NCBI GenBank assembly: GCA_021825365.1
Contig: JAKAHR010000003.1
Coordinates: forward strand, 1 to 64,000
Source: Nitrospirota bacterium
Lineage (GTDB): Bacteria; Nitrospirota; Thermodesulfovibrionia; Thermodesulfovibrionales; UBA6898
Length of the DNA: 64,000 nt
Direction: 5' to 3'
The notes under the pieces were generated by a model. It had not been told where the DNA came from, searched no databases, and worked only from the letters and a program-made list of their open reading frames with translations. This document shows, in pieces, positions 13,555 through 48,751 of the stretch. Numbering within the stretch: the stretch's first letter is position 1; each line of letters begins with the position of its first letter. A program made the translations under genes and the position numbers.

Positions 13555-13636
13555 CCGGCTAGCCGCAGAAAGTCATTCGGTCGAGAGTCTTAAGAAGTCA
13601 ACAGTCTCAGAGGCACTATCAATATAATCACCCTGG

Positions 13637-13680
13637 CCTTCCGACTCCCGACTTGTCTTTTCGACGCCGTGACTATCGAC
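13637..13680. repeat. CGACT-rich degenerate repeat, left copy
   Basis: The 24 bases at 13637-13660 (starting CCTTCCGACTCCCGACTTG) recur exactly at 14097-14120. They are followed here by further CGACT-type words (GACTATCGACTAGTCACTCGACTACC at 13670-13695 with small gaps). The repeat runs into the 3' end of the four-helix-bundle gene and supplies its last residues. Confidence 0.7.
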
Positions 13681-14083
13681 TAGTCACTCGACTACCAACC
13701 GTTCTTTCGTTTCCAGACTTTGATCGCCTGAGATAATTCATAAATCCTGTCAGGAGCCGGCCTGTCTCATCAGCCAGAGAATATAGTGACTCAAACGATG
13801 CCGCTTCAATATACTTTAGATCAAGCGCCACGTAAAGCTGACTCTGGACCTCCGCGATGGAGCCGCCTGCGATGTTAAGAAAATTCGTCATCTCCTTGTC
13901 AGTGTAGCGGCCAAAGCCTTCCGCGATGTTGGACATGGCCGAGACGGCAGCCCGGCGAATCTGTTCTCGAAGTCCGACGTCCCTCCTGAATGAAGCTGAA
14001 GCATTGGTCATTCTGTAAACTTCTGCAACCAGAGTCCTGGCCTTCTGCCATGCGATAATCTCTTCAAACCTCTGTATCTTCAT
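13673..14083 (-). CDS. Four-helix-bundle protein (23S rRNA intervening-sequence type)
   Basis: 136 residues. IQRFEEIIAWQKARTLVAEVY, FRRDVGLREQIRRAAVSAMSNIAEGFGR and FLNIAGGSIAEVQSQLYVA are the hallmarks of the S23/four-helix-bundle family first seen in rRNA intervening sequences and now known as scattered intergenic genes. It assembles as a pentamer of helical bundles; the cellular role is unknown. ATG with GGGAGGGGATC upstream. The last residues (about 122-136) come from the flanking repeat. Nearly identical CGACT-rich repeats on both sides suggest it was inserted or moved as a unit. Confidence 0.88.
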   Translation of the reverse strand: MKIQRFEEIIAWQKARTLVAEVYRMTNASASFRRDVGLREQIRRAAVSAMSNIAEGFGRYTDKEMTNFLNIAGGSIAEVQSQLYVALDLKYIEAASFESLYSLADETGRLLTGFMNYLRRSKSGNERTVGSRVTSR

Positions 14084-14096
14084 GATCCCCTCCCAG

Positions 14097-14160
14097 CCTT
14101 CCGACTCCCGACTTGTCTTTCCGACTTTCGACTCACCGACCCCCGACTTGTCCCCTGTCT
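14097..14160. repeat. CGACT-rich degenerate repeat, right copy
   Basis: Begins with the same 24 bases as 13637-13660 and continues with variants (CCGACTTTCGACTCACCGAC, CCCGACTTGTCCCCTGTCTC). The pair brackets the four-helix-bundle gene in direct orientation. Confidence 0.7.
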
Positions 14161-14165
14161 CCCGA

Positions 14166-15326
14166 CTATTGCCTCACCACTTCTTCATAAACCCTAATCG
14201 TCTGCTCGGCGATCCTGTCCCAGTTGTAGGTTTCGCGCAGCAGCTTGTCATATGATTCCTTTTCATCAGCAGATATCCCGGTGGAAAAGACTGCCCGCAT
14301 CACTTCTGCCATGCCGGCGGCATCACCAACGGGGAAGTACCTCTTGTCTGCCAGGGGGATTTCCCTGTGCTGGGGGATGTCGCTGACCGCCACCGGCAGG
14401 CCGTAGCTCAGGGCCTCCAGGAGTGCTATGGGCAGACCCTCGTAGTATGAAGGCAGGACGAAGAAGGCTGCGTTGGAAAAAAGCTCCGCAAGGGGCTGGC
14501 CGGATATGAAGCCGGTCAGCACTACACCCTTGGTTTCAGCAGCCGCTTTTTTCAGGTTTCGACTGTAGTCTGTCTCATGATCCGCGTCACCCGCGATCAC
14601 CAGCTTGAACTGTGGATTCTCAATGCTGCCGTATGACTTGATCAGATCGTGCAGGCCTTTCTCTGGTACGAATCTACAGGCGGTAAAGGCGTACCGGCCG
14701 GGTTCCAGTACCCACTGCTTCACGATTGCGCCTGGCTCAGTTGTCTGCGGGACGGTTACGCCGTTTGGAATATATGAGGCGGTCTTCCCGAAGAGCTTCG
14801 CCGCGTGCTGTTGAATTCCTTTTGATATGGCTATAACCCTGTTACTGTAGAGAACGCCCATCCTTTCGCCCAACCGTAGGGCAAGCCTGGCTGCGGCACC
14901 CCACTTCTCACGCTGATAATCCGGGCCGTGGTGGGTCATCATTACCTTCATTCCCATGATCCTTGCCATGGGAGCCAGCAGCGAAGGGCCGATGGAGTGG
15001 ATGTGAAGGACGTCAGGAGATAATATCCGGGCCTTCAGAATGCCGTAAAAGGTATGCAGGATCGCTTCGAGCGATTTCTTCCTCGGACACCAGAGGTGGA
15101 CGAACTTCACCCCCTTCCATGCCGCCTGCCTCTGTCCCTCGGGGATGTAGGGTGTGCGTGTGAAGACCGTGACGTCGCAGCCAAGATCGACGAGGCGGGG
15201 ATAGAGTTCCTCGCAGTGTTTCTCGACCCCGCCCTGGACATGCGGGAACCCGCGTGTGCCGAGGACCGCGACCTTCAGTTGCTTCTCAGCCACCGGACTT
15301 GCCGAGGCCGAGTTTCTGCCGGACAA
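14166..15326 (-). CDS. Glycosyltransferase family 4 protein
   Basis: 386 residues. A GT-B fold with KVAVLGTRGFPHVQGGVEKH at the start, VLHIHSIGPSLLAP, YIPNGV, CRFVPEKGLHDLIKSY and the donor site SYYEGLPIALLEALSYGLPV (E-x7-E). VLGTRGFP-x-x-x-GGVE is typical of rhamnosyl- and other GT4 enzymes of O-antigen clusters. It adds one sugar of the repeat unit at the cytoplasmic face. A GTG at 15293, overlapping the upstream stop, may be the real start and would remove a 41-base overlap with the radical SAM gene. Confidence 0.9.
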   Translation of the reverse strand: MSGRNSASASPVAEKQLKVAVLGTRGFPHVQGGVEKHCEELYPRLVDLGCDVTVFTRTPYIPEGQRQAAWKGVKFVHLWCPRKKSLEAILHTFYGILKARILSPDVLHIHSIGPSLLAPMARIMGMKVMMTHHGPDYQREKWGAAARLALRLGERMGVLYSNRVIAISKGIQQHAAKLFGKTASYIPNGVTVPQTTEPGAIVKQWVLEPGRYAFTACRFVPEKGLHDLIKSYGSIENPQFKLVIAGDADHETDYSRNLKKAAAETKGVVLTGFISGQPLAELFSNAAFFVLPSYYEGLPIALLEALSYGLPVAVSDIPQHREIPLADKRYFPVGDAAGMAEVMRAVFSTGISADEKESYDKLLRETYNWDRIAEQTIRVYEEVVRQ

Positions 15327-16251
15327 TCCACTTGACCGGCGTGAGCAGATCCTTCTTCATCGCCGGGGCAACGCTGCCGATCATCCAGCAGGCCTTCTGG
15401 CAGTCCTTCACGGCTGCACGCACCTTGTCGGCTTCTCTGCTTTTCCAGATCTCGTCGAAAGTCTGCTTCGTCAGATCGCCCATATGCATTTCGGTATCCG
15501 TACCGTTGCAGGGCATGACCTTGCCGAAGGGATCGACGAAGAACATATCGGTGCCCACCTCGCAGGGCAGCAGCCGCTTTCCGCCGCGGACGTAGTTGGC
15601 CATGCCGTGATTGAAATAGGCGCGGAACCAGTTCTTGACCCTTCTAGTCTTCAGCAGCTCGCAAGATATCTTTGCAAACTCCCGTGCGATCATCTCCGGG
15701 TCGTTGAACTTATTGTCGTGCTTGTGGAAATAGTACGAGTTGTGGGTCGATGCCGTGGCGAATTCGAGGCCCATACTTTCGGCCAAGCGGTACAGCTCGA
15801 TCATGTCCTTCGCATTACGGTCCGAGGCCGTTATACCAAAGCCGATGTCTTTCACGCCCAGGGCCTTTAGTGCCAATAGACTCCTGATGCCGTGATCGAA
15901 GCCGTCCTTCAATCCGCGCAGGGCGTCGTTCGCGGCCGGCAGGCCCTCAATGGAGATCCGCACGCCGATATTCGGGAATTTTTGCGCAAGGGAAACCATC
16001 CGGTCGGTGAAGTAGCCGTTGGAAGAGATCACGAGCCGCTCGGCCTTGGTGAGGGCAACCCGTACGATCTCATCAAGATCAGTTCTCAAGAACGGCTCAC
16101 CGCCGGTGATATTGATGAACTTGAGACCGGTCGGCATCTTCTCGACAATGGCAGGAGTGATCTCCTCCTGCGGCTTCGACGGATATTGCCACGTATTGCA
16201 CATGTGGCACCGTGCGTTACAGCGGTATGTGACGATTATGCATGCTTCCAT
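15286..16251 (-). CDS. Radical SAM protein with SPASM-like C-terminus
   Basis: 321 residues. The [4Fe-4S] motif CNARCHMC (C-x3-C-x2-C) is at about 12-19, then NITGGEPFLRTDL (SAM-binding GGE) and a C-terminal Cys set (LLPCEVGTDMF, VMPCNGTD, DCQKACWM) of SPASM type for extra iron-sulfur clusters. Such proteins often sit in polysaccharide and O-antigen clusters, where they may alter sugars or lipid carriers; the substrate is unknown. It lies between a methyltransferase and a GT4 gene on the same strand, so a role in EPS building-block modification is likely. Confidence 0.88.
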   Translation of the reverse strand: MEACIIVTYRCNARCHMCNTWQYPSKPQEEITPAIVEKMPTGLKFINITGGEPFLRTDLDEIVRVALTKAERLVISSNGYFTDRMVSLAQKFPNIGVRISIEGLPAANDALRGLKDGFDHGIRSLLALKALGVKDIGFGITASDRNAKDMIELYRLAESMGLEFATASTHNSYYFHKHDNKFNDPEMIAREFAKISCELLKTRRVKNWFRAYFNHGMANYVRGGKRLLPCEVGTDMFFVDPFGKVMPCNGTDTEMHMGDLTKQTFDEIWKSREADKVRAAVKDCQKACWMIGSVAPAMKKDLLTPVKWIVRQKLGLGKSGG

Positions 16252-16292
16252 GAATTATGGGTTCCTTTGGATACAGACTAGAGTTGCAATAC

Positions 16293-16937
16293 CTACTTCC
16301 CGCCCACTACATAGTAATGCAATGGCAGCCCCAAGAAACGTTTAGTAAAAATCTGGCTATCTCCGACCTGCGCAGCCCGGAGTATCCTGATCAAGTCGCC
16401 GCCTGTGAGTAAATGCATATAATCTCCGGCTGCCCATTCTTTGCCGATCATCTTCAACATATTATCAAACTGCCTTTTGGGTAAATAATGCATGAATGGC
16501 AAATTTGTATGTGTTTCAAATGGAAAATACCGCGACGGTGTCGTAATAAAGAATTTCCTGCCCACCCTGCCTATCTCCCTAATAAAGTCAACTTGCTTTT
16601 CAAATCCACCCACATGCTCAATCACAGCATTACAGTGAATTACCTCAAATGCTTTGTCTTCAAAGGGCATTTTGCCACCACTATAGACGACAGGCTTTAT
16701 AGCCGGATATCTCATCTTGAAGTGCTCAAGAGGATAAATTGATAGAGCAGTGATATTTTCTGGGCACGGACAGTTCTTTTCTAAGAAGTTGTCGAAAGGA
16801 GAATGCTCATTATCAGCCACACCGACATCCAAAATAGTTGGCCATCGCCCGCCGCAGATATCGTTGAAGAAGTAATCCAACTTTTTCTTCCTCGATGACC
16901 ACATTAATCTATGTTTCACATCTCTCATATAAGACAT
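16293..16937 (-). CDS. SAM-dependent methyltransferase
   Basis: 214 residues. Motif I is ILDVGVADNEHSPFDNFL; the class I core continues with MPFEDKAFEVIHCNAVIEHVGG (motif IV-type, D-x-V-x-x-x-x-V-I-E-H). It probably methylates a sugar hydroxyl of the EPS or a lipid-linked precursor. Coding sequence here is visibly AT-richer than the genes before 16 kb. It follows the GT4 gene at 16956 by 18 bases. Confidence 0.82.
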   Translation of the reverse strand: MSYMRDVKHRLMWSSRKKKLDYFFNDICGGRWPTILDVGVADNEHSPFDNFLEKNCPCPENITALSIYPLEHFKMRYPAIKPVVYSGGKMPFEDKAFEVIHCNAVIEHVGGFEKQVDFIREIGRVGRKFFITTPSRYFPFETHTNLPFMHYLPKRQFDNMLKMIGKEWAAGDYMHLLTGGDLIRILRAAQVGDSQIFTKRFLGLPLHYYVVGGK

Positions 16938-16955
16938 AATATCTCCGGTGTATAA

Positions 16956-18215
16956 CTAGACTCTGGCCTTCTTTGAATATGCCACCTTGTTGTACTGCTG
17001 CCTACTTAATACAGCTTCATAGACAGCCAAGAGCTGCTCGTAATGCACTTCAGGATTGTAGTCTCGCTCCACCTTAACCCTCCCAGCCTTGCCCATGGAT
17101 TTTCTCTTCTCCGGGGCATTCCATAATTCCATCATCTTCGCACACAGGTCCTCGGCGTTCCCAGGCTCGAACGTCAACCCATCCACTCCTTCATTGATCA
17201 ACTCAGGGACTCCGCCGATGCGGGAACCGATAACCGGCTTACCCATCGCAAAAGATTCCAGCACAGACATGGGACAGTTCTCGTACCACTCGGAGGGAAT
17301 AACGGTAAAACTCGCTTCCGCGATCAACTTCTTAAGTTCATCGCCGGTCTTGAATCCGGCAAACGCGATGTTCCGCAGATCCAGTTCGGCGGCCATTTGT
17401 TTCATGCCGGCTTCCATGGGGCCGCTGCCGACGATGAAGAATGGGAGATGGGGAACTCTACTGAGTGCCCCGAGGAGCGTCATTACCCCCTTCTCCTCGG
17501 ACAACCTTCCGAAATAGATGCCATATCCCTTGTCGGTCTCAGACACTGTAAATTGTGATGCATCGATGAAGTTGGGAATATGAACCACCTGAGTCGGCGG
17601 GAAGCCGAACTCTATCATCTTGTCACGGTAAAAGCGGCTGACTGCGATGTATTTATCAACACCCTGATAATATCCCATGGCATAGTGAAAATACATCTCG
17701 ACTGTATTGACCAGGCTATGAAGCGATGAGCCCTTCGAACACCTGTGTATCATACATTTATAGAACTTTTTCCCCTTGCAACGCTCACAGATGCCATCAT
17801 GCGTCAGCATCTTGTAATTGGGACAGATTGGTTTCAGGTCGTGGAGGGTTAAAATGATAGGTATACCTTTTCTTCTTAAAGGACCAAAGACGGAAGGAGA
17901 AATCTGGTGCTGAAAAATGTGGAAATGCGCAATTGCTGGGTTAGCCTCTCGCAACAGCCTCTCCATTTTCCTTTTTGCCTCAAAGGAATAGATGACCTTT
18001 CCAGCAGCAGAAAGCTTGTTGCCCAGTCCTCCCTTCGCATAATCAACAGTTTCGACAAAATAGCTTCTATATGGTGAAGGCAAATTATTCCGGTGCTTCA
18101 TCGAAAAAAGGATCACGTTATGATTGTATCTTTCTAGGAGTTCTTTCTCCTCGAAGAACACCACCTCGCTTCCGCCTTTTCGCCAGCAAAACTTATTAAT
18201 CGACAAAATTCGCAT
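16956..18215 (-). CDS. Glycosyltransferase family 4 protein with cysteine insert
   Basis: 419 residues. N-terminal acceptor half starts NKFCWRKGGSEVVFFEEKEL; donor half has GIYFGRLSEEKGVMTLLGAL and the E-x7-E site PSEWYENCPMSVLESFAMGKPV. Between them lies a cysteine-rich loop (CPNYKML, CERCKGKKFYKCMIHRC) that recurs in the GT4 gene at 46854 (CPNGLFM, CEACSGG, CILRNC) and may bind a metal. The two proteins are paralogues. Sugar and linkage are unknown. Confidence 0.9.
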   Translation of the reverse strand: MRILSINKFCWRKGGSEVVFFEEKELLERYNHNVILFSMKHRNNLPSPYRSYFVETVDYAKGGLGNKLSAAGKVIYSFEAKRKMERLLREANPAIAHFHIFQHQISPSVFGPLRRKGIPIILTLHDLKPICPNYKMLTHDGICERCKGKKFYKCMIHRCSKGSSLHSLVNTVEMYFHYAMGYYQGVDKYIAVSRFYRDKMIEFGFPPTQVVHIPNFIDASQFTVSETDKGYGIYFGRLSEEKGVMTLLGALSRVPHLPFFIVGSGPMEAGMKQMAAELDLRNIAFAGFKTGDELKKLIAEASFTVIPSEWYENCPMSVLESFAMGKPVIGSRIGGVPELINEGVDGLTFEPGNAEDLCAKMMELWNAPEKRKSMGKAGRVKVERDYNPEVHYEQLLAVYEAVLSRQQYNKVAYSKKARV

Positions 18216-18269
18216 ATATCACCCATTGCCGTAACGCAACAACCAAAGTACCAGAAGCTATAAGCACTA

Positions 18270-19694
18270 TTATTCGCTCACTTGAAGATTTGGGTTTGGC
18301 TCAAAATCATACTTCTTCATATTACCATCGCCAAAATCGTTAAGCGCTATTTTCCCCCGAACGGCTGCCCCAATGCCTTTTGTAATCCTTATCCCTACAC
18401 CCCTATTTCTTGCTCCTGGATTCATTACAAGTATGTTTTGCGAAATAACTACCCGACAGGTCCTCAATCCAGCGACCTCCACCTCAATACCAATTTGGTT
18501 TGCAACGTCAGGCAATGTAAGTCTATTACTAGTTATCAAAAAAGGAATGCCAGCTCCAGTCGTCCATTTAAAATAAGTGCCACCCTCCAGATAGTTAGCG
18601 TTGAGAGTAAAATTTGTAGCGTTGGCATGAATCTCAACCGTCCTTTTGGGCTTACCCGAAGACGTTAGCTTATTCGGGCCAGAATAGATGTGATTACTGG
18701 CAATCAGCCATCCAGGTGCTTGGGATGAAGAGCCAAAATATATTCCGCAGTGCCCGTAATTATAAATAACATTGGACTCGATAAAACTATCGTATGCAGT
18801 TCGACCCTGCACCTGTATGCCATATTGTCTCTGTCCTTCAATAGCGCATCCCGCAATTCTGTGTTCGCCATTCCAGGCGCTATTTTTTCCTGAATCGAGA
18901 TATATGCCCACATCTCCACCCTTTATCACGCAGTCGATCCACCGACCGCGAACTGTCTTCATATTGAAAACTCGCGAACAACTTCTTCCATTTACATTGA
19001 GCCCTACAAAAGTCATCCCTACTGCATCGGTTTCATTAGACAGACTGATAAAATCTCTGCCACTCGGGCCGCTATAAACAAGGTCATGTCTTGCCGTCGC
19101 AAGTTGCTGATGATTATTATAATGACCCTGAAGGGTAATGCCGGGCTTGCCGATAATTGTATCGGCAATCTCCAAACTTCCTTGTGGCAGAATAACACTA
19201 TCGCCAGCTGCGCAGGCGGCTATTGCTCGATTTAGTGCCTGAGCATTTTCTTCAGCCGCTACCGACGGAGAGGCGCCGAACCACTCGGCGCGCAACGCTC
19301 CATCATAAATCCTGACCCAACGTCCTTTCTTGACATCTAGCGGCTGAATAACGGTGCCACCGTTGTCAGGAATCATTTTCCCCGGATCCCAAAAGAAAAG
19401 CCCAGCCCCGCCGTCAGCAGGCAATCGGAAACAACTCAGTATTACTATTTGGTAATTAGATTCACCGACAGAATTACGAAGATCCCGCATAGTACGAACA
19501 GCTAGGACAGGGTTGTCATTATTAACTAACTTTCCGCGATTAGATGGCGCCGCGTTGGGACCCTGTGCTGATATACTTTGGGCAGCGACGTGAACGCCCG
19601 ACTTTGGCTTTTCATGTAACTTATCAACCGGCCGAAGCAGCTCACCGCCAAAGTATAGGCCAGTCATGCCTCTTATGAAATTGCGACGATTCAT
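18270..19694 (-). CDS. Right-handed beta-helix protein with Tat-like signal
   Basis: 474 residues from the ATG that overlaps the upstream stop (ATGA). The N-terminus MNRRNFIRGMTG resembles a twin-arginine signal (RR-x-F-x-R) but lacks a long hydrophobic stretch. A pectate-lyase-3/tailspike entry motif (LRAEWFGASPSVAAEENAQALNRAI, then VILPQGSLEIADTI) leads into a parallel beta-helix with repeated short turns (SNHIYSG, LNANYLEGG, ISQNILV). The fold suits a polysaccharide lyase, epimerase or hydrolase acting on the polymer outside the cytoplasm. Being translationally coupled to the polymerase-like gene suggests both act on the same polymer. Confidence 0.78.
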   Translation of the reverse strand: MNRRNFIRGMTGLYFGGELLRPVDKLHEKPKSGVHVAAQSISAQGPNAAPSNRGKLVNNDNPVLAVRTMRDLRNSVGESNYQIVILSCFRLPADGGAGLFFWDPGKMIPDNGGTVIQPLDVKKGRWVRIYDGALRAEWFGASPSVAAEENAQALNRAIAACAAGDSVILPQGSLEIADTIIGKPGITLQGHYNNHQQLATARHDLVYSGPSGRDFISLSNETDAVGMTFVGLNVNGRSCSRVFNMKTVRGRWIDCVIKGGDVGIYLDSGKNSAWNGEHRIAGCAIEGQRQYGIQVQGRTAYDSFIESNVIYNYGHCGIYFGSSSQAPGWLIASNHIYSGPNKLTSSGKPKRTVEIHANATNFTLNANYLEGGTYFKWTTGAGIPFLITSNRLTLPDVANQIGIEVEVAGLRTCRVVISQNILVMNPGARNRGVGIRITKGIGAAVRGKIALNDFGDGNMKKYDFEPNPNLQVSE

Positions 19695-21037
19695 TTGGCA
19701 TTCCATGATCTGCTTGCACATCCATTCTTAGCGGGCACAGTATCACCACCACTTTGATCTCGAGCTCGATCCAAATAGCAATGACCTAACCCTAACATGA
19801 CAGGAAGTAGCCATGATGTTGAGCTATAACCGTCGACATTCTCCGTCAACCCTCCTATATACAGCGAGCCAATTACTCCGCATAGCAGATATAACGGTTC
19901 GACACTCCCTTTGCTGGAGTCCCTAATAAGAGCGGCCATTACAAAACCACGATATAGCAAAAAACCTACAAGACCCAACAACCCCGTGTCAAAGAAGACA
20001 GTAATATAATCACTTTGAGATGATGCAAATCGTGTATTTGGCAGGTAAGAAAGATCCCAAGCCCGCCACCCCAAGCCAGTATATAACTGATCGGCAGCAC
20101 TAACTTTATTGACCATGTATCGCCACACCTTGGTCCTTGTATGCAGAGAGTTAATACTATAACCTGAATTATCATGCAGATAAGTGCTCATGCGCACAGA
20201 AAGAATCTTGTCGAATTGCTCACTAACAGGACTTTTTACAACTACCAGGCCCATGATTAGCAACGCCAAAATACCCCCAACTAACCCTGACCAGCTTCGA
20301 AAATGACTGACAATGATAGTCAACACCAAGCTGACGCAATAAACCACTACCCCAATCCTTGTACCCGAATAGATCAAGGCTACTGGTAAGCCAGCATAAA
20401 CCAATATAAAATTAGCCCGCCTTAGCCGCCCATCAAGAATAAATTTATAATACAGCGGCAACAGCGCCGCGCTTACGATCGCTGCGCTATGCGGGAACTC
20501 AAACAATATAAACGCAAATTCATGATTTAGTTTCGCAGCCATCGTCACGGAGAAATCAACATAGTAAGCATGGATTAGACCGCTTACGGCAATAAAACCA
20601 AAATAAGTAGACAGCGCTCTAGACAATGTTCGGTCAAGATCATGACGACTCGACCAATAAAGCTGCGCCAAATAAAAGACAGCTACAAGTGAGCCAACTG
20701 TGGTAGCAAACGCAACATGAGATCTGAGATTTGCATTAGCTACCAGTGATGGCAGAGCCGAAGATACAAAGACCGCAATAAAGAGAAGATAGTCATGCCT
20801 TTTGGAAACCACTCGCTTGAGAAATACCGGATGACAAATCACTAGCATAAATAATAAAATGGTAGCCAAGTTGACTAGACCTGTTAAACTAAAAGCGCCA
20901 AGGGACAATTTGAATGTATTAGTAATGACACCTGAAAGAAAATGCAGAATAAATAGCAAAACAAAACCACCGCTGAAAAGTATAGATAGTTCTTCTTTGG
21001 AATATCTTTTACGGGTATTCTGATTTGCAGCTTCCAT
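19691..21037 (-). CDS. O-antigen ligase / polymerase (Wzy-like) membrane protein
   Basis: 448 residues with about 11 hydrophobic segments and a larger periplasmic loop near 290-330 (YSINSLHTRTKVWRYMVNKV), the Wzy_C layout. SGTRIGVVVYCVSLVLTIIV, with an arginine in a helix, is also typical. It would join repeat units on their lipid carrier or ligate a glycan in the periplasmic face of the inner membrane. Sequence alone cannot separate polymerase from ligase. AT-rich, as expected for serotype-specific genes; ends overlapping the beta-helix gene. Confidence 0.82.
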   Translation of the reverse strand: MEAANQNTRKRYSKEELSILFSGGFVLLFILHFLSGVITNTFKLSLGAFSLTGLVNLATILLFMLVICHPVFLKRVVSKRHDYLLFIAVFVSSALPSLVANANLRSHVAFATTVGSLVAVFYLAQLYWSSRHDLDRTLSRALSTYFGFIAVSGLIHAYYVDFSVTMAAKLNHEFAFILFEFPHSAAIVSAALLPLYYKFILDGRLRRANFILVYAGLPVALIYSGTRIGVVVYCVSLVLTIIVSHFRSWSGLVGGILALLIMGLVVVKSPVSEQFDKILSVRMSTYLHDNSGYSINSLHTRTKVWRYMVNKVSAADQLYTGLGWRAWDLSYLPNTRFASSQSDYITVFFDTGLLGLVGFLLYRGFVMAALIRDSSKGSVEPLYLLCGVIGSLYIGGLTENVDGYSSTSWLLPVMLGLGHCYLDRARDQSGGDTVPAKNGCASRSWNAK

Positions 21038-21074
21038 ATTCTATATGATCATTGTGCCGCCAAGCCCATAAGTC

Positions 21075-22298
21075 TCAGCCTAGTATTTCTCGATATTTTG
21101 CAGCCAGGTCACGGGCAATAATGTGGTATCCTCGAAAGTCAGCGACTCGCTCTCGTCCATTAGCTGACAGTCGATAGCAGAGCGTTTCGTCCCTAAATAG
21201 AAGGTCAATTGCATTAGCGATCTTATCGGCATCCTGTTCTACACATATGCCGTTCTCCAGCGTGGCTAAAACCAACTTCTGATCCGGAACATCTGTGGCA
21301 ACACACGGTACACCTATCGCTGCATATTCTAAAACTTTTGTCGGTGACGACATGTCGAGGATAGAATTTCGTGGCAAAATGCTTATTGCAACTCTAACTT
21401 CAGAAATTCTGCTCAGCGCCTCGGCAGTAGATAGCCACTCTGTGATTTTGAATCTTCCTGCTAAATGCCGGTTATTCATTTCAGTGGCTAGCCAGTCACT
21501 GTCACCCTCAAGGAGACCCCCGCCCACAAATATTATACTTGCCTCCGGATGACGTGCCAGAACAATACCTATTGCGTCGAAAAAGAACTCCTTCATACGC
21601 AAGCGATTTATGACCCCAAGATAGCCAATTTCCAGTGTCTTGCAACTTTTTACAATTGCTTTGGAGCTCCCGAGTATATCAGCTACTTCCTCTGTATCAA
21701 CACCCATAGGCATAACCGCAATCTTCTTTTCATCAGCACTTAGCTTTCGCAACAACCATTCTTTCATGTTGTCACTTTGCGCAAAGACATAGTCAGATTG
21801 CGGAATGACAACGTTATATAATAGATGCTGCTGCAAATAACCACGAATCAAATAGAAACAACGCCACAGAACTCCATGCGTGCTTTTTAAGTAATGATAT
21901 TTATCTATATCATCCTCAGCATATGGATAAGACATCCAGTAGAAAAAACTTTTATTGCTTGCCCTCGCAATAATTAGTGAGACTAGTCCAATAAAGGCCT
22001 GATCTCGTACTTGAATCGCATCATGAGCACTAGCATGGCGTGCAATCAAGGCCAGCACACGTACTGCCGATGTGAATCTGCCAACAACAGAAGCTACATG
22101 TTGTTTTACGAGATAGACATTACCACCGCTCCACGTTGTGGCATCTCCGTAACTCCCCTTTGCAATAACTGACGTCATAATGCCATGTCGAGGGAGGTAA
22201 TGGCCGAATAGAGCCTTAATATCCGGTCGAAAGGTAGGAAATTCCTCCCGTAACACATATAAAATTTTAATAATACCACCCATAAATAGAACAACCAC
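21075..22298 (-). CDS. Glycosyltransferase family 4 protein
   Basis: 407 residues. The acceptor half holds FYWMSYPYAEDD and VFAQSDNMKEWL; the donor half has AVMPMGVDTEEV, IGYLGVINRLRMKEFFFDAI and SSPTKVLEYAAIGVP (the E-x7-type donor site is shortened). It matches GT4 enzymes of surface polysaccharide clusters. It lies 37 bases upstream of the polymerase-like gene. Donor sugar unknown. Confidence 0.85.
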   Translation of the reverse strand: MVVLFMGGIIKILYVLREEFPTFRPDIKALFGHYLPRHGIMTSVIAKGSYGDATTWSGGNVYLVKQHVASVVGRFTSAVRVLALIARHASAHDAIQVRDQAFIGLVSLIIARASNKSFFYWMSYPYAEDDIDKYHYLKSTHGVLWRCFYLIRGYLQQHLLYNVVIPQSDYVFAQSDNMKEWLLRKLSADEKKIAVMPMGVDTEEVADILGSSKAIVKSCKTLEIGYLGVINRLRMKEFFFDAIGIVLARHPEASIIFVGGGLLEGDSDWLATEMNNRHLAGRFKITEWLSTAEALSRISEVRVAISILPRNSILDMSSPTKVLEYAAIGVPCVATDVPDQKLVLATLENGICVEQDADKIANAIDLLFRDETLCYRLSANGRERVADFRGYHIIARDLAAKYREILG

Positions 22299-22420
22299 CG
22301 CTTAAAGGTAATAGCCGTATGACTAACATCACGTTCTCACGCACCTTCCCTTGAAAACGAATCCACTATCAACGCAGAATACCTGCCAGCTCTGGGGATC
22401 AAATACCCTTCCAGCTCATT

Positions 22421-23365
22421 TTATGACAGGTTACATCTGTAGCCATATCTCAACAGCAAAGGCAAGGTTAATCCTGTTACTAATGCACGTTTAGGGCGGG
22501 ACATTTTATGCCGCCATTCATCGTCCTCCCGCAAGCATATTTCTCCACTCTTAAACCGCATAGGATTACCCGAAGGAATATGATTTGAACCCAACATTAC
22601 AGTAGCCCCTGCAAGCCCATGCACCGCACGGTCATGAAGACCAAACTCATAGAGGAGAGCATGGACCGTCGCACTTGGGTGGCTCATGAGATCTTCGTAC
22701 CGTACCACAACACCCTTCTTAGCATAACGAGTCAGTACTTCGGAAAGGATATTTTCTTTCATCCACTGTACAGCGCTAGATAGTGCAGACATGGTCGGCA
22801 TATATTCAACCCTCTCGATTATCTCGCTACGAACCCGCTTTCTCTGCCATGAATAAGTTACTGCATTACTATTTCTAACTAAGTGGACAGCATTAACATC
22901 GAACACTCCGGTGGCAGCAAGCAGCAACCCGTAAAGTGGCATCTTTGATGAATCAATTATGACATCAGCCCCAGCCTCTGCAAGCACAGCCGAATACAAT
23001 ATCTTGATGGTTTTCGCAAATGCAGACAACTTTTCTCTGTACCATTGCGGTTGCAGGCGAGGACTTAAAAGCCACGGAATATAACGCAGTCTCATTATGC
23101 TCTTTTGCACTTCAAGTGCATGACCGAGCTCCGGATATTCTAATTGAGAGACAGTCCGCGCAATAACTTTGGACCAGAAGAAACACTCTCTGAACGGATG
23201 GCCACAACCACATAATTGGTTTTCTTCATATCCCCGTTCCCATAGCAGCCACATTTCTCCGCAAGAAACAAATCCATCGGCCTGTCCGAGGATGCGATCC
23301 AGCAACGTGCTTCCGCTACGCCCCTCGCCTGTTATGTATATGATGCGAAGACTCTCTTTATCCAT
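22421..23365 (-). CDS. PAPS-dependent sulfotransferase
   Basis: 314 residues. The 5'-phosphosulfate loop IIYITGEGRSGSTLLDRIL is at about 8-26; the 3'-phosphate site appears as VHLVRNSNAVTYSWQRKR (R and S after a short gap) and late FKSGEICLREDDEW. Both match the sulfotransferase_1/3 family that moves sulfate from PAPS to a sugar hydroxyl. It follows the flippase gene by six bases, which in turn overlaps cysQ, so sulfation and repeat-unit export are in one transcript. A sulfated EPS is the simplest reading. Confidence 0.85.
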   Translation of the reverse strand: MDKESLRIIYITGEGRSGSTLLDRILGQADGFVSCGEMWLLWERGYEENQLCGCGHPFRECFFWSKVIARTVSQLEYPELGHALEVQKSIMRLRYIPWLLSPRLQPQWYREKLSAFAKTIKILYSAVLAEAGADVIIDSSKMPLYGLLLAATGVFDVNAVHLVRNSNAVTYSWQRKRVRSEIIERVEYMPTMSALSSAVQWMKENILSEVLTRYAKKGVVVRYEDLMSHPSATVHALLYEFGLHDRAVHGLAGATVMLGSNHIPSGNPMRFKSGEICLREDDEWRHKMSRPKRALVTGLTLPLLLRYGYRCNLS

Positions 23366-23371
23366 TGATTA

Positions 23372-24733
23372 CTACCTGCTCCTATTTAAACTACAGAAAC
23401 GATCGATATAAGGGAAATAATATGTACGCAAACCTAATAATTTTTTTATACTAAATACTGCAGCGAGATTCCAAAATATCATACTTATCATGCTTGACAC
23501 TGCAGCTCCATTAATTCCATATCTTTGGATCAGCAGAGCATTAAGCGCAATATTGATAACCACAGCAATAAGAATGATATTACGGAACAGTTTCTGGTTA
23601 CCGGTCATTTGGAGAAGATACCCCACTGACCCTGATATCGCATTAACAAACTGGCCCGCCGCCAGCAAAAGCAGCGCGTATACACCCGCCTCGAATTCCT
23701 CCCCAAAAATACCCAATATAATCTTTGGAAATAGAAGGATGCAAAGTAGCACCGGAACTGACGTCCAAAAGATCATTCTTGTGGACTGCCTCACAATGCC
23801 TTGCAGTCCATCCATATCCCCCTTGCTATAGAGCTCCGCAAACTTCGGGGCGGCAATAGAATTTATCGCCATGAGGGTCAGGCTCGTAACAGTAGAAATC
23901 TTCAGCGCGACACTAAAAATACCAACCTCACGCTCGCTCCTGAATATGCCGAGCATGATGGTGTCAGCCCAGCCCATGACCAGAAACATCGAGCTGGACA
24001 AGAGCATCGGCATGGAGATATCGAAAAGCTCACGGTAACCCATGTGAGGTGAAGCTGAGGAGGCCTGAACATCAGCCTTCTTCACAAACATAATGCTGCC
24101 GATCGTTGCCACGATCACGGACGCCGCAAGATAGGCGATCAGGGGCAGGCGATTGTCCTCCCAAATCGTAAGCGCAGTGCCCAGAAGCAGGGCCCCGAAG
24201 AGAAAGACACCGGTTAACTGAAGAAAGGCATAATCCCTTATCTCCTTGAGCCCCCTGAGACTTTCCGAATTAAGAAATATCAACACGGTTGGTATAATGC
24301 CGAAAGACGCAAGTCGCAGGAAGGGAACAAGGCCCTCCTTATGAAACACGTACGTCGCTATGGGCGGAGAACAGAAGAACAGCAGCACCGACAACAGGAA
24401 GGATAAGGGCAGAGACATCCTGAGGGCCTTTGAGTGGATGCTTCTCACCGTATCCCATCTGCCTTGAGAGGAATGCTCCGAGATCAGTTTCAGCAGGGCA
24501 GTGTCGAGCCCGAGCCTGCCTACAACGGAGAAGATGGTAATTACTGTAAGCGACAGCGCGAAGGTCCCCATCGCCGAGGCACCGAAATTCCTGGTTACAA
24601 GGAGGGTGAACACATAACTCGACAGCGCTCCCACTATCTTAAGAATCAGCGTCACCGAACTTCCCTTCAGTAGAACCTTGAAGTGGCTATCCCCGGTAAG
24701 TCCAGAGTTCAGCTTCAGGATGAGACTCTTCAT
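23372..24733 (-). CDS. Oligosaccharide flippase (Wzx-like, MOP superfamily)
   Basis: 453 residues with 12-14 hydrophobic segments. LVTRNFGASAMGTFALSLTV near the start and LSSSMFLVMGWADTIMLGIF in the middle are typical of PST/Wzx exporters. It moves lipid-linked repeat units across the inner membrane. Its ATG overlaps the cysQ stop and its stop lies six bases before the sulfotransferase, making a coupled cysQ-flippase-sulfotransferase run. A second flippase lies at 56121. Confidence 0.9.
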   Translation of the reverse strand: MKSLILKLNSGLTGDSHFKVLLKGSSVTLILKIVGALSSYVFTLLVTRNFGASAMGTFALSLTVITIFSVVGRLGLDTALLKLISEHSSQGRWDTVRSIHSKALRMSLPLSFLLSVLLFFCSPPIATYVFHKEGLVPFLRLASFGIIPTVLIFLNSESLRGLKEIRDYAFLQLTGVFLFGALLLGTALTIWEDNRLPLIAYLAASVIVATIGSIMFVKKADVQASSASPHMGYRELFDISMPMLLSSSMFLVMGWADTIMLGIFRSEREVGIFSVALKISTVTSLTLMAINSIAAPKFAELYSKGDMDGLQGIVRQSTRMIFWTSVPVLLCILLFPKIILGIFGEEFEAGVYALLLLAAGQFVNAISGSVGYLLQMTGNQKLFRNIILIAVVINIALNALLIQRYGINGAAVSSMISMIFWNLAAVFSIKKLLGLRTYYFPYIDRFCSLNRSR

Positions 24734-25686
24734 CGCGCTGCTTCCAAACGCACCATAAACCAGGGGTTGTGCAGATCCGGCTTGTTGTATGCAAGATGGT
24801 ACTGATGCGGCACTGCGACAACGTCACCCCCGGCCCCCTCCACCACCGCCTGCCCGGCAGCCGTGTCCCACTCCATGGTCGGCCCGAAGCGGGGGTATTC
24901 GTCAGCAAGCCCTTCAGCCACAAGGCAAAACTTTAGCGAACTGCCGGCAGAGATGATCTCGACCTCGCCGTGTTCGGCCCTCAGCTTATCGAGATACTCC
25001 TCTGTCTCCTTCGACATGTGCGACCGGCTGGCGATGACGGTGTAGGGGCGATCGGACTCTTTCAGAAGCGGGAGTTTCCGTGAAGACTTCAGAAGGGTAT
25101 CACAGAAGGATTCCGGACAAGCCGGAATGACAGCGTTCAGTCCGACCGGCTCAGTAAACGGCTCACGTCTTACGTCTGACGTCTTACGGGCATTTGTCTG
25201 CTTGTACGCGCCCAGCCCTTCGCCTCCGAAATAGAGAACGTCCTTCACCGGCACATAGACCACGCCCATTACAGGCCTCGTCTTATGGATCAGGGCGATA
25301 TTCACCGTGAATTCGCCATTGCGCTTGATGAACTCCTTAGTTCCATCCAGAGGATCCACCAGCCAGAAATATTCCCAGTGTCTCCGCTCTTCATAGGGAA
25401 TGTCCCTGCCCTCTTCGCTCAGGATCGGCAGGCCCGTCTCCTTCAGTGCGGAGGCGATTACCTCATGCGACCGCCGATCCGCCAGGGTGAGGGGAGACTT
25501 ATCATCCTTATGCTCCACCGCGAAGTCGGACCGGTAGACATCGAGGATCGCAGCGCCGGCCTTGAGGGAAGCGGAAATGGCAAGTGCCGCAAGAGGCGTG
25601 AAGCGTGCAGCGCAAGACGTGGGACCCGAAGCAACTGCCGCGCCGTCGCCTGTCCTCCCCACTTTATTCACTGCGCACGTCCTCAT
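24730..25686 (-). CDS. cysQ: 3'(2'),5'-bisphosphate nucleotidase
   Basis: 318 residues from the ATG at 25686 (AGGGGA close upstream). Inositol-monophosphatase fold: KDDKSPLTLADRRSHE (metal-binding D), LPILSEEGRDIPYEE, VDPLDGTKEFIKRNGEFTVNIAL (D-P-x-D-G-T-K-E-F) and MEWDTAAGQAVVEGAGG (W-D). It hydrolyses PAP left after sulfotransfer. Compared with typical CysQ (about 250-280 residues) it has a longer N-terminus and an insert containing ARKTSDVRRE, encoded by a 7-base tandem repeat (25165-25188). The catalytic residues are intact. Confidence 0.9.
   Translation of the reverse strand: MRTCAVNKVGRTGDGAAVASGPTSCAARFTPLAALAISASLKAGAAILDVYRSDFAVEHKDDKSPLTLADRRSHEVIASALKETGLPILSEEGRDIPYEERRHWEYFWLVDPLDGTKEFIKRNGEFTVNIALIHKTRPVMGVVYVPVKDVLYFGGEGLGAYKQTNARKTSDVRREPFTEPVGLNAVIPACPESFCDTLLKSSRKLPLLKESDRPYTVIASRSHMSKETEEYLDKLRAEHGEVEIISAGSSLKFCLVAEGLADEYPRFGPTMEWDTAAGQAVVEGAGGDVVAVPHQYHLAYNKPDLHNPWFMVRLEAAR
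25165..25188. repeat. 7-base tandem repeat inside cysQ
   Basis: ACGTCTT, ACGTCTG, ACGTCTT and ACG follow each other without gaps. It is in frame within the nucleotidase gene and belongs to the same ACGTCT-type word family as the repeats in the spacers at 27222, 29585 and 30540. Confidence 0.75.
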
Positions 25687-25697
25687 TTCCCCTGCGA

Positions 25698-26009
25698 TCA
25701 GGCCCCGCGCCGCAAGGTCCTCTGACGAAGCCACTTCTTAAAAGATTCCTGGCTTTCTCCGGACGGTCTGCCCGCCAGCAACCCTTCCACGCTGATATCC
25801 TCATCCAGGTCTTCCCAATGGATACCCTGCCCTCTGCCAATAAGTCGCCAATGCTTCCTCTCCTGCTGCGTGGCCTGCATCAGCCTCGGGAACCATGCCA
25901 GCGGCACGGCAATGGTCCTGCCGTCGCTGAGATCAACAGTGAGCGTGTCTTTAGTAACAGTGACCCGTTGTGCCGCCGGAACCGATAGCTCAACTTCCGA
26001 AATAGTCAT
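25698..26009 (-). CDS. DUF2442 domain protein
   Basis: 103 residues from the MTISEVE start. The pattern TVDLSDGRTIAVPLAWFPRL, RKHWRLIGRGQGIHWEDLDEDISVEGLL is diagnostic of DUF2442. It overlaps the end of the upstream DUF4160 gene by 20 bases; the two families often occur as a pair, which is why a toxin-antitoxin-like role has been suspected, although no activity is known to me. It sits inside the sulfation module, between cysC and cysQ. Confidence 0.88.
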   Translation of the reverse strand: MTISEVELSVPAAQRVTVTKDTLTVDLSDGRTIAVPLAWFPRLMQATQQERKHWRLIGRGQGIHWEDLDEDISVEGLLAGRPSGESQESFKKWLRQRTLRRGA

Positions 26010-26983: not shown

Positions 26984-27105
26984 CAGCTGGCAAGCCGACA
27001 AGCCTGCAAGCTGGATAACTGAATAGCTGGATAGCCTGCCCGCTTGTTATCTTCTTTCGCTGGTTAGCTTGATGGCCGGTTAGCCTGATAGCTGCTTGTG
27101 ATCCC
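26984..27105. repeat. Degenerate quasi-tandem repeat, AGCTGGATAGCC type
   Basis: Words of 7-9 bases such as AGCTGG, CAAGCC, GATAGC, GGTTAGC and CTGGATA follow each other with constant small changes, on a roughly 8-base beat. No codon structure is apparent. This and the stretch at 27222 fill the 337-base gap between cysC and the next gene; 27106-27221 in between is AT-rich with no feature that I can name. Confidence 0.7.
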
Positions 27106-27221
27106 ACTTCTGCAAATGACAACCTGCTCCCTCCAAATACCCCAATATATCTCTTTAGCAAAAAGTGAAATATTATAGAAAAATCAAGGGGGAAAGGCAA
27201 GAAAAATCGTCATGAAAAATA

Positions 27222-27306
27222 GTCATGAAGCCGTAAGGCGTAAGGCAGGAGGAGGCAGGAGGTAAAATAAAGACGTGAAACGGGAGGCCTGCGTCTCACG
27301 TCATCC
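27222..27306. repeat. Degenerate quasi-tandem repeat, ACGTGA/GGCAGGAGG type
   Basis: Words GCCGTAAG-GCGTAAG, GCAGGAG-GAGGCAGGAGG and AGACGTGAAACGGGAGG follow each other, ending at the stop codon of the next gene. It shares the ACGTGA/GACGGGAGG vocabulary with 29585-29660 and 30540-30617. Confidence 0.65.
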
Positions 27307-29584: not shown

Positions 29585-29660
29585 AAGAATAACGGTGAGA
29601 CGGGAGGCGGGAGGCGTCAGACGTGAATCGTTATACACGAGACGGGAGGTGTACGGAGTT
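29585..29660. repeat. Degenerate quasi-tandem repeat upstream of the Wzy/TPR gene
   Basis: GAGACGGGAGGCGGGAGGCG, CAGACGTGAATCG and ACGAGACGGGAGGTG run on in sequence. It lies between the CpsB-like gene and the Shine-Dalgarno sequence of the Wzy/TPR gene and can be read through in frame as SRLTPPASRLT. Confidence 0.65.
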
Positions 29661-29724
29661 TCCTCCCTCACCTTTTAGGCCTCTTTCTGGTCATTTCCTG
29701 ATTCATCCCTTTGTTGGTTTTAGG

Positions 29725-30539: not shown

Positions 30540-30617
30540 CTTATCGTGAGTCGCAAGACGTAAGACGCAAAAAGCACGATCGTGAGCCGTACGACAGTAG
30601 ACGTCTCACGTTTCACG
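30540..30617. repeat. Degenerate quasi-tandem repeat between kinase and phosphatase genes
   Basis: GTGAGTCGCAAGACGTAAG, ACGCAAAAAGCACGATCGTGAG, CCGTACGACAGTAGACG and TCTCACGTTTCACGCC follow each other, all variants of an ACGTNAGACG-like word. The kinase stop codon lies within it. Confidence 0.65.
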
Positions 30618-32820
30618 CCTTCCGTTTTGCGTGCTTCTTCTGTGTCCCCTTCTTGTCCGCATTGTAGTAGGAATAATAGGGATAATAGTAATAGTTCTTT
30701 TTCGAGGTGTCGATCTTGTTCAGTACGACGCCGAGCACCTTTACGCTGATGCCTTTCAAGGCCTGGACAGACTGCTGAATCACGTTCCTGCCGGTCTTTC
30801 CTCCCCATATCACCATAATCACACCGTCGGCCATCTTCGCCAGCACCAGCGCGTCGGAGAAGGCGAGGAGCGGCGGGGAGTCGAGGATGACGCGGTCATA
30901 CCTGCCGGCGACCCGGGCGATGAACTCGGTCATGCCTATTGACCCGAGGAGCTCAGAGGGGTTCGGCGCGAGCGTGCCCCCGGTAACCACATCGAGATTG
31001 GGCTGGCCCTCGACCGGCTTGATGGCTGCGGGGAGCTTGCCCGGGTCGACGATCACGTCGCTGATGCCCGTTGCATTGGAAAGCCCGAAGATCTCATGGA
31101 GGTTGTGCCGCCTCATGTCAGCATCGACGATCAGCACCTTTTCGCCCATCTGGGCCATCGCGACCGCGATGTTCGCCGCTGTCGTCGTCTTGCCCTCGTT
31201 AGGCGTTGCGCTGGTGACGAGGATCACCTTCAGGGGCCTTTCGGAAGGCGAGAGCATCAGGCCGGTGCGTATGGTGCGGTACGCCTCTGCTGTCGCTGAC
31301 CGGGGATCAGAGACGAGGAAGATCGGCCCCTTCTTCTCGTCCGTGAGGGGGACCATATCGAGAAACGGCAGGGCGAGGCTGTTGTTCACGTCCTCGGCGC
31401 TCCTGATGGTATCGTCCATATACTCGGTAAAAAAGGCGGCAAAGACACCGCCGAAGAGTCCGACCATCATCGCCAGGACCAGGTTCAGGGCCCTCTTCGG
31501 CTTGACCGGATCCTCGGGGATGACCGCGTAGTCGACGATCTGGGCGTTCGAGACAGACATGCCGCTTGAGAGGGACGCCTCCTGGAGCTTCTTGAGGAGC
31601 AGCTCGTAGAACTGCTTGTTGCTGCCCGCCTCCCCTGCGATGACGTTGAAGTCAATCGCCTTGCGGGTGAGGTCGAGCACCTCCTGTTTCTGCTGGTCGA
31701 TCGCCCGCCTCAGGGACGTCTCGCGGCTCCTTGCCACCTCGTAGTCGGCCTTTGCGGCATTCAGCATCTTGCGCGCCTCGCTGATGACGTTCTTCTGCAC
31801 CATATCGAGCTGGGAGTTCGCCTTGATGATCTGGGGATGGCGGGATCCGAACTTCTCGGAGAGCTCGGAGAGCTGCTTCTTGAGATTCAGCTCCTCTGTC
31901 CTGAGGTTCTGGATCACGAGGTTGTTCATGATGTCAGGCACCGTCGCCAGGAGGTCCGGCCTGTCGATGACCGACCTGATCTGGTTGTACTTGATCTCGG
32001 ATTCCGCCCTCTTTCCCTCGGTCTGCACCAGTTGGGTCATCAGTTCCTGGAGCTTCTGGTTCAGGACGGACTCCTTCGTCTCAAAGGAGACGACCCCCTT
32101 GCCCTCGCGGTACTGCTGGAGCATCTTCTCGGTGTCTTCCACCTTGGACTTCGACTCGGTCAGGCGGGCGGAGAGCCACTCCGCGGCGTCACGGTAGGGC
32201 TTTACCCGTATGTTGAGATTGTGCTCGATAAACGCCTCGGCAACGCCGTTGGCCATGACAGCCGCTGCGGTGGCATTGTCGGCCTGGTAGGTGATCTTCA
32301 TCAGGTTGGTCTGCTTGCCCGGCTGCAGGTCTACGTTTTCGAGGACAATGTCGGTGAGGTCAGGGTCAAGCTCGTCCTTGAACTTGAAGTCAGGGAAGGG
32401 GCTAGCGGGCTTTGCCTTCTCCGGGAAGATCGACTTGACCGTCTTTACGGCGGTCTTGAGCAGGCTGTTGGTTTTCTTGTCCTTCAGCTCCATGAAGTAG
32501 GGGTTCTTCGTCAGCAGGAGTTTCCGGACGACCCTGTCGCCGAAGGCCCTGCTGTGGACGATCTCCTTCTGCGTGTTGAAATACTCCGCAGCGTCCTTCA
32601 TCTGGATGACCGCTGCCCCGGCCTCCGCGAAGTTGAGGGTCTGGTTCTTCTCGAGGTCGATCAGCACCTGCGCAGCGCCCTCATAATACGGGGTTGCCGC
32701 AAAGGAGTAGACAGCCACGATGCCGACGACGACGGCAAAGAAAGTGGCAGCGACCTGGCGCCTCTTTGACAGGACCCTCCAGTAGTCCAGCAAATGTATC
32801 TCTTCATTAGGAGACTTCAT
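30613..32820 (-). CDS. Wzc-like polysaccharide co-polymerase and tyrosine autokinase
   Basis: 735 residues. Wzz domain at the N-terminus (HLLDYWRVLSKRRQVAATFF, first membrane helix about 18-35), a long coiled coil at about 210-400, GNVR-like GxxD loop, second membrane helix near 455-475 (ALNLVLAMMVGLFGGVFAAF), and a BY-kinase domain with Walker A PNEGKTTTAANIA, Walker A' VLIVDADMRRH and Walker B RVILDSPPLLAFSDA. The C-terminal tail NYYYYPYYSYYNADKK is the autophosphorylated tyrosine cluster. It controls chain length and opens the Wza channel. It lies between the wza-like and cpsB-like genes. Confidence 0.94.
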   Translation of the reverse strand: MKSPNEEIHLLDYWRVLSKRRQVAATFFAVVVGIVAVYSFAATPYYEGAAQVLIDLEKNQTLNFAEAGAAVIQMKDAAEYFNTQKEIVHSRAFGDRVVRKLLLTKNPYFMELKDKKTNSLLKTAVKTVKSIFPEKAKPASPFPDFKFKDELDPDLTDIVLENVDLQPGKQTNLMKITYQADNATAAAVMANGVAEAFIEHNLNIRVKPYRDAAEWLSARLTESKSKVEDTEKMLQQYREGKGVVSFETKESVLNQKLQELMTQLVQTEGKRAESEIKYNQIRSVIDRPDLLATVPDIMNNLVIQNLRTEELNLKKQLSELSEKFGSRHPQIIKANSQLDMVQKNVISEARKMLNAAKADYEVARSRETSLRRAIDQQKQEVLDLTRKAIDFNVIAGEAGSNKQFYELLLKKLQEASLSSGMSVSNAQIVDYAVIPEDPVKPKRALNLVLAMMVGLFGGVFAAFFTEYMDDTIRSAEDVNNSLALPFLDMVPLTDEKKGPIFLVSDPRSATAEAYRTIRTGLMLSPSERPLKVILVTSATPNEGKTTTAANIAVAMAQMGEKVLIVDADMRRHNLHEIFGLSNATGISDVIVDPGKLPAAIKPVEGQPNLDVVTGGTLAPNPSELLGSIGMTEFIARVAGRYDRVILDSPPLLAFSDALVLAKMADGVIMVIWGGKTGRNVIQQSVQALKGISVKVLGVVLNKIDTSKKNYYYYPYYSYYNADKKGTQKKHAKRKA

Positions 32821-32837
32821 ATCAGCGACAACCTCCG

Positions 32838-32910
32838 TGTTTCAAGTTCTAGGTTTCAGGTGGTATGTTTCAAGTGCCCCAACACCTAACTCATTACACT
32901 TGACACTTCC
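32838..32910. repeat. Degenerate quasi-tandem repeat, TTTCAAGT type
   Basis: GTTTCAAGTTCTAGGTTTCAG, GTGGTATGTTTCAAGTG and later TCATTACACTTGACACTTCC are variants of a TTCAAGT/ACTTGA word. It fills the spacer between the Wza- and Wzc-like genes. Confidence 0.6.
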
Positions 32911-32918
32911 ATTTCTTC

Positions 32919-46793: not shown

Positions 46794-46853
46794 GACTTCC
46801 TTCCGACTGACCTGAGGGGTAGCACGTGACGAATTACTCTAGTCAACCTTTTT

Positions 46854-48035: not shown

Positions 48036-48046
48036 TCACGCAAACG

Positions 48047-48751
48047 CTATTTTTTAATAAGTCTGGCTATTATTCCTTCGCCTAAGTTAGGCGAAATAAG
48101 ACAGGCAAAGCGCTCAACAATATACGGAAACAGTGGACGACTATTGGGTAATCTGTACGAACATTGCTCTTCTATCTGGTATTCGAACAACTGAGCCAGT
48201 CTGTAAAGTGTACTGTGCGAATAATACGCTACGTGGTCCTCATGCACAGACTCTCGCCCGCGTGCGACCTGCAATAGCTTACGAAGACAAAAAGCGTTTG
48301 GCCCAGTTATGATAAGGGAGCCGTTCTCTTCCAAGACACGCCTTGCCGAAGCAAGAAAACTGCCAGGGCAAGGAAGATGTTCTATAATCTCTCCGGCGAC
48401 GATTACATCAAATAATCCTTTATCGAGCAGATCCAAGCGTTCCGCATCGCCAACATATATGCCTTTTACGCCAAATTCGGCTTTTAGCTGCTCAACTGCC
48501 GCACTTGCACTGTCGAGTCCTATGAGCTCCCCCGCTACCGTCTGTATTTTTCTGTGTAGCCACCCACTACTATTGACTGCAACCTCCAGATCTCCGGTTG
48601 AGCTGAAATCTGCAAAGCCGACATGCAGTACTCTTTTGTTTACACAATGAGACAAAATGTAATCTTGACGATCCACCAAACGCCTTGGCAGAGGATAGTG
48701 CTTAACAGGACTAGCAAGAAGTCGGTTCTTTCTCTGATTGTTTATTCTCAT
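48047..48751 (-). CDS. SAM-dependent methyltransferase
   Basis: 234 residues. Class I core with VLHVGFADFSSTGDLEVAV (motif I), GDAERLDLLDKGLFDVIVAGEIIEHLPCPGSFL and NGSLIITGPNAFCLRKLL. It probably methylates a sugar hydroxyl. Lies 11 bases after the GT4 gene at 46854 in the AT-rich stretch. Confidence 0.85.
   Translation of the reverse strand: MRINNQRKNRLLASPVKHYPLPRRLVDRQDYILSHCVNKRVLHVGFADFSSTGDLEVAVNSSGWLHRKIQTVAGELIGLDSASAAVEQLKAEFGVKGIYVGDAERLDLLDKGLFDVIVAGEIIEHLPCPGSFLASARRVLEENGSLIITGPNAFCLRKLLQVARGRESVHEDHVAYYSHSTLYRLAQLFEYQIEEQCSYRLPNSRPLFPYIVERFACLISPNLGEGIIARLIKK

Follow-up and report, generated by a model that had tools for sequence, protein, structure and literature searches.

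Several gaps in this Nitrospirota locus are filled with short, slightly varied words, which raises the question of what these spacers are and how they came to lie between genes. The original prediction, made on the same 64,000-nucleotide stretch (hereafter the window), described words of 7-9 bases repeated within gaps and proposed a slippage or template-driven process acting on the spacers. We consider it likely that the word spacers come from widespread mobile elements resembling rRNA intervening sequences (IVSs), either as their ends or as derivatives lacking the IVP gene. These elements are about 0.2-0.6 kb in size, and their sole gene encodes the 23S rRNA intervening-sequence protein (IVP; four-helix bundle, S23, PF05635).

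Word arrays in the window

Repeated 5-mers, either direct (lag 6-40 bp) or inverted, were counted per interval and compared with 2,000 dinucleotide-preserving shuffles. Gap-wise shuffles were used instead of plain lag autocorrelation over crude spacers, which was confounded by missed low-GC genes. All six gaps named in the original prediction exceeded the shuffles in direct repeats (p 0.0005-0.026), which is the shuffled-sequence control that it had called for. The quoted words were found in the gaps, and the vocabulary does differ between gaps. The arrays are indeed neither CRISPRs nor ordinary satellites: the words are contiguous and degenerate, with no constant-length unique spacers between identical repeats. 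The description had overlooked the partly head-to-head layout of several gaps (words, then reverse-complement words) and two further arrays, a stronger one at 14084-14170 and one at 25135-25195 inside cysQ. The arrays that stand without an IVP gene (solo arrays) and the cysQ array are listed here, with repeat counts given as observed versus shuffled:

26984..27110, minus strand: solo array of AGCTGGATAGC words between wzy and the APS-kinase gene (direct 25 versus 5.9, p = 0.0005; inverted p = 0.039)
27222..27306, minus strand: solo array of ACGTGAGACG words after wzy (direct 16 versus 2.5, p = 0.0005; inverted p = 0.0045)
29585..29665, minus strand: solo array between cpsB and wzy (direct 10 versus 3.5, p = 0.017)
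30540..30620, minus strand: solo array between wzz and cpsB (direct 9 versus 3.2, p = 0.026; inverted p = 0.017)
32836..32912, minus strand: solo array of TTTCAAGT words between wza and wzz (direct 12 versus 2.4, p = 0.0005; inverted p = 0.022)
25135..25195, minus strand: in-frame array of GTAAGACGT words in cysQ (direct 14 versus 1.4, p = 0.0005)

The array at 26984..27110 extends over the TTG that is annotated as the start codon of the APS-kinase ORF. Scanning 290 kb sampled elsewhere in the 3.26-Mb genome yielded 4 weak arrays, compared with 4 in the 64-kb window; the arrays are thus concentrated in this window and sparse in the sampled remainder. A candidate outer inverted array at 13565-13612 was not above shuffles (p = 0.56). 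An Rfam search of the 64-kb window gave no match, no rRNA lies in the window, and RNA folding of the window arrays revealed nothing special (z −1.4 to 0.0).

In cysQ (24730-25734, minus strand), the array at 25135-25195 is in frame and is followed by a CATTCCGGCTTGTCCGGAATCC palindrome. It sits in a loop longer than that in the solved CysQ 3b8b, and non-coding repeats have apparently been absorbed into the protein. The surface-polysaccharide region also contains two low-GC blocks (42-50% versus ~58%) at ~16000-24000 and ~46000-57000, which probably represent acquired genes.

The IVP gene of the window and its two arrays

The remaining named gap, around 13637, and the stronger array at 14084-14170 lie on either side of one gene:

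13673..14083, minus strand: IVP gene (23S rRNA intervening-sequence protein, four-helix bundle; PF05635, E = 8.8e-34; TIGR02436; solved relative 2gsc, E = 1e-16)
14084..14170, minus strand: upstream word array of the IVP element, with AGTCGGGAGTCGG words on the gene strand (direct 35 versus 10.8, p = 0.0005)
13637..13700, minus strand: downstream word array of the IVP element, overlapping the C-terminal codons (direct 12 versus 3.6, p = 0.008)

The upstream and downstream arrays have a near-identical stretch of ~30 bp in common. The occurrence of the same words just before the IVP start and just after its stop suggests that the words belong to the IVP gene and not to the gap. The element is located between protein genes, not inside 23S rRNA. 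Its only profile matches were PF05635 and TIGR02436, and it encodes no Y1 (HUH) transposase; the Avd match of the IVP was weak.

Word arrays flank IVP genes in general

PF05635 genes were collected from relatives and the rest of the phylum, from other named genomes and from plasmids. The family was above the cut-off in 171 of the 296 Nitrospirota genomes searched, and IVP also occurs in several other phyla; a search of a phage collection found none. A word array was present on at least one flank in 151 of 156 distinct IVP genes, mostly from Nitrospirota, and on both flanks in 106, usually with a period of 7. For 138 genes, paired control flanks were taken at a distance of 600-750 bp within the same locus; these carried far fewer arrays, both upstream (IVP 111 versus control 21) and downstream (116 versus 28). 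Under a stricter threshold, IVP genes were likewise enriched over other genes of the same loci (upstream, 52/67 versus 50/227; downstream, 46/67 versus 36/227). Of 229 arrays, 157 had a dominant lag of 7, 14 or 21; multiples of 8 and 9 came next in frequency, which corresponds to the "7-9 bases" of the original prediction.

The same pattern was found at 18 of 20 IVP genes from other named genomes and, judged by eye, at 10 of 10 plasmid cases from cyanobacteria and Azospirillum. Two loci (L225 and L241) lie inside 23S rRNA according to Rfam and are therefore classical IVSs; they have arrays of the same kind. PF05635 is present in all collected elements, and solo arrays are without it. On cyanobacterial plasmids, two IVP elements are situated between CRISPR genes (L379, cas6/cas4; L380, cas10/cmr3).

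Matched ends and a vocabulary that follows the protein

In a full element, the IVP gene follows an array of degenerate words of ~7 bp and precedes a second array, in which the same words recur mostly as reverse complements. In this typical order, 6-mers of the upstream array matched the reverse complement of their own downstream flank over a mean of 40 bp, compared with 18.5 bp for mismatched loci (0/5,000 permutations). The own downstream flank also outperformed those of other loci of the same IVP subfamily (40 versus 27.3 bp, p = 2e-11), indicating that each element maintains the match between its two ends. The flanks of the window IVP depart from this pattern: the words that they have in common run mostly in the same direction (inverted 13, direct 69).

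The vocabulary is gap-specific, as predicted, but is not arbitrary for each gap, because it follows the lineage of the associated IVP. Non-syntenic IVP pairs at 60-85% identity shared words at 0.119, compared with 0.067 when permuted (maximum 0.079; 0/5,000) and 0.064 for control flanks. Over all pairs, a Mantel test gave no correlation between protein identity and words (0.02), the signal being confined to pairs above ~55-60% identity. For example, IVPs ending in VKRMLT pair with CAGCTATCAGC words, those ending in ERVDRML with GTGAAACG/GTGAGACG words, and those ending in REIERML with GGCACAAAGG words; AGTCGGG and CTGATAGC are words of two IVP lineages. AGTCGGGAGTCG words occur both at the window IVP and at L188, a relative with ~80% identity to it. 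A grammar with a fixed core and variable positions in the heptamer was rejected, since it was indistinguishable from randomly scattered mismatches.

Words turn over fast. Two IVP copies in G036 (L202 and L203), whose genes are 99.4% identical, differ at 11 of 98 array sites compared with 2 of 300 gene sites (p = 6e-6), leaving room for slippage or word-to-word copying after insertion. Each of these copies has an in-frame stop and lies beside duplicated ...AGGGATTGCGAC... repeats, a second repeat family that surrounds several IVP genes (L164, L166).

Arrays were added at operon junctions

The operon ...wza-wzz-cpsB-wzy is conserved in relatives (L002-L009), and the window arrays are missing from the tight orthologous junctions. 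The wza-wzz gap is 98 bp in the window and 10-27 bp in five relatives; in the closest relative it is 280 bp with a different vocabulary. Between wzz and cpsB, the window has 75 bp, whereas the genes overlap by 4 bp in four relatives. Junctions this tight in four to five relatives indicate that the array DNA was added. After wzy, the window holds two solo arrays and the relative L006 a complete IVP element.

Three of the five window solo arrays matched the vocabulary of a sampled IVP beyond the shuffle maximum: 26984 (best match L186, 70 versus 60 bp), 29585 (L313, 49 versus 43 bp) and 30540 (L306, 54 versus 44 bp). The other two, 27222 and 32836, matched no single sampled IVP vocabulary beyond shuffles. 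When the words of all IVPs were pooled, the fraction of the window gaps covered by their 7-mers was saturated and hence uninformative. For the window, we infer that the solo arrays are IVP-less elements or remnants.

Elements insert as units in Nostoc plasmids

Two Nostoc plasmids (L374 and L375) have an operon in common (91-99.7% DNA identity) in which their IVP elements occupy different junctions, and each plasmid thus provides the empty site of the other. Site B reads GGTTCTAGGTTATGCAAATC when empty and GGTTCTA-AATCAGGAGTCAGGAGTCAG ... IVP ... CTGACTTCTGGATTCTGATT-ATGCAAATC when occupied. This site is empty in five copies (L374, L385, L386, L388 and L389), and L384 and L387 carry the same element as L375. 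At a ribonucleotide-reductase (RNR) junction, L376 carries an element and L392 has none. The occupied and empty junctions are exact at sites A and B and at the RNR site, and the inserted DNA terminates in the arrays on both sides. No consistent target-site duplication was found at the plasmid sites examined, and no recombinase or catalytic motif was seen.

In L387 (580-765), an IVP-less element of ~180 bp with the same words interrupts the IVP gene. Its relatives (TTGAAGAAGAATTCAG ... GAATTCTGTTTGATAA; ~180-230 bp, non-coding; L393-L396 among others) occur at 97 places in 43 Nostoc-group plasmids and belong to no Rfam family. The four inspected among these 97 places have the same ends and unrelated flanks. 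Together, the occupied and empty sites and this mini-element show that insertion as a unit applies to IVP elements and also to their counterparts that have the same words but no IVP gene, an observation made in cyanobacterial plasmids and not in the Nitrospirota lineage of the window.

Solo arrays in other genomes

By raw counts, 38 arrays were detected in 600 kb of seven IVP-bearing genomes and 10 in 600 kb of eight IVP-free genomes. Solo counts were very uneven, with 21 in G036 and 7 in G037. Solo arrays were clearly present in the IVP-free genomes G003 and G011, so that their persistence does not strictly require an IVP gene in the genome. In four genomes taken together, solo arrays shared more words with IVPs of their own genome than with those of others (2350 versus 2125 ± 89 bp; 3/1,000), mainly because of G037; within G036 alone, the matching was not significant.

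Proposed mechanism and alternative explanations

The nearest worked example is the rRNA IVS, which favours an IVS-like element. The window solo arrays would derive from IVP elements whose words may be recognised by the IVP or its RNA. An inserted element may be transcribed with the host operon, like an rRNA IVS; the IVP gene is in sense in 102 of 105 gaps between co-directional neighbours, and is antisense in two cyanobacterial plasmid cases (L376 and L377). At the RNA level, the inverted ends might pair and undergo RNase III-like processing, by which the insertion would be tolerated. After insertion, words may change by slippage or word-to-word copying.

Alternatively, arrays might be built de novo in spacers, by slippage during local replication or by copying from a hairpin template, and IVP genes would merely tend to sit in such spacers. 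Fast word turnover and copy-number change, including that among Coxiella strains, would fit such a process, as would the solo arrays of IVP-free genomes and the general over-representation of period 7 in bacterial repeats (PMC4692102). However, the junctions of relatives offer no spacer to slip on, and the exact occupied and empty sites in the Nostoc plasmids are bounded by arrays. Two separated arrays are also matched inversely across a gene, and related IVPs at non-syntenic loci have words in common. We therefore regard de novo slippage as unlikely. The process proposed in the original prediction is not supported as the origin of the arrays; given the turnover seen in L202 and L203, it may act on the words after insertion.

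Less probable still is an origin from a Y1 (RAYT) transposase that spreads REP/BIME-type repeats, or from a reverse transcriptase with DGR-like products, the IVP being a passenger. The organisation is RAYT-like (PMC2817692), 33 of 41 relatives, the genome of the window included, have a Y1 transposase domain, and Avd resembles IVP, to which it gave the weak match. Nevertheless, the vocabulary follows the IVP, and the Y1 transposase is absent from the IVP-bearing genomes G005 and G019. Reverse transcriptase (PF00078) is absent from the genome of the window and from the IVP-rich genomes G004, G022, G030, G031 and G037; it is not needed for movement of the element, and a reverse-transcriptase origin was rejected on these grounds. 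A regulatory role, with arrays as protein- or RNA-binding sites acting on transcription or translation and a secondary link to IVP, appears marginally less probable again. Arrays do lie directly before starts and after stops, and translational regulation was proposed for TAACTGA in Beggiatoaceae (PMC4679880). However, vocabularies differ within one operon, the same operon lacks arrays in relatives, three of the five window solo arrays match IVP-element ends, and one of the TAACTGA arrays is itself next to a remnant of an IVP gene (L246).

Relation to known systems

Short rRNA IVSs are not known to contain an S23p/IVP reading frame. Heptamer repeats, rRNA IVSs and RAYT/REP systems are all already known. 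The 23S rRNA IVSs with an S23p/IVP ORF (Coxiella, Leptospira; PMC4990558) have the same protein family and, family-wide, complementary ends, which in rRNA are cut by RNase III (PMC4990558). The Coxiella IVS also carries tandem GACAGAT heptamers in strain-variable number before the S23p start, similar to the arrays before IVP start codons. Unlike these IVSs, the present elements lie between (once inside) protein genes and are far more numerous. Their vocabularies are specific to the locus, and they have derivatives without the IVP; processing by RNase III would apply to them by analogy.

In RAYT systems, inverted REPs flank the gene and follow the protein lineage, and non-autonomous solo REPs or REPINs have the same words (PMC2817692). 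However, IVP is a four-helix bundle and not a Y1/HUH transposase, and the ends described here are degenerate heptamer arrays instead of palindromes with a tetranucleotide head. Diversity-generating retroelements are similar through the weak relation of Avd to IVP, whereas neither a reverse transcriptase nor a template/variable repeat is present here.

Tandem 7-bp units between genes have been reported as TAACTGA in Beggiatoaceae (PMC4679880), GGGNATC in Xanthomonas and Nostoc (PMC4692102) and GGGACCG in Geobacter (PMC2700814), and include the cyanobacterial STRRs. Those repeats are single consensus words with no linked gene, whereas the present arrays have many vocabularies paired inversely around an IVP gene. 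In a literature search to which most subscription journals were inaccessible, no paper apart from the note on Coxiella heptamers connected IVP genes with word arrays between genes, and none described word arrays as element ends or a vocabulary following the IVP lineage; earlier notice is possible.

More tentatively, and with somewhat less than even confidence, the IVP might be the mobility or targeting protein of an undescribed class of mobile elements with evolving heptamer-array recognition ends, each lineage reading its own vocabulary. Many heptamer repeats (STRR, TAACTGA) would then be solo derivatives, and 23S rRNA IVSs would be members that landed in rRNA. The heptamer repeats of cyanobacteria, Beggiatoaceae, Xanthomonas and Geobacter have so far been described case by case, with no cause assigned to them, and rRNA intervening sequences have stood apart as a curiosity whose protein has no known function. 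A link of both to one protein family would merge two open questions into one with a common, testable origin. If true, this would define a new class of selfish element without a recognisable recombinase and would explain sudden non-coding insertions in operons and even inside genes.

At one locus (L246, 1400-1470), the TAACTGA heptamer array of Candidatus Parabeggiatoa adjoins a truncated IVP gene, a single case hinting that the TAACTGA repeats of Beggiatoaceae may originate from IVP elements.
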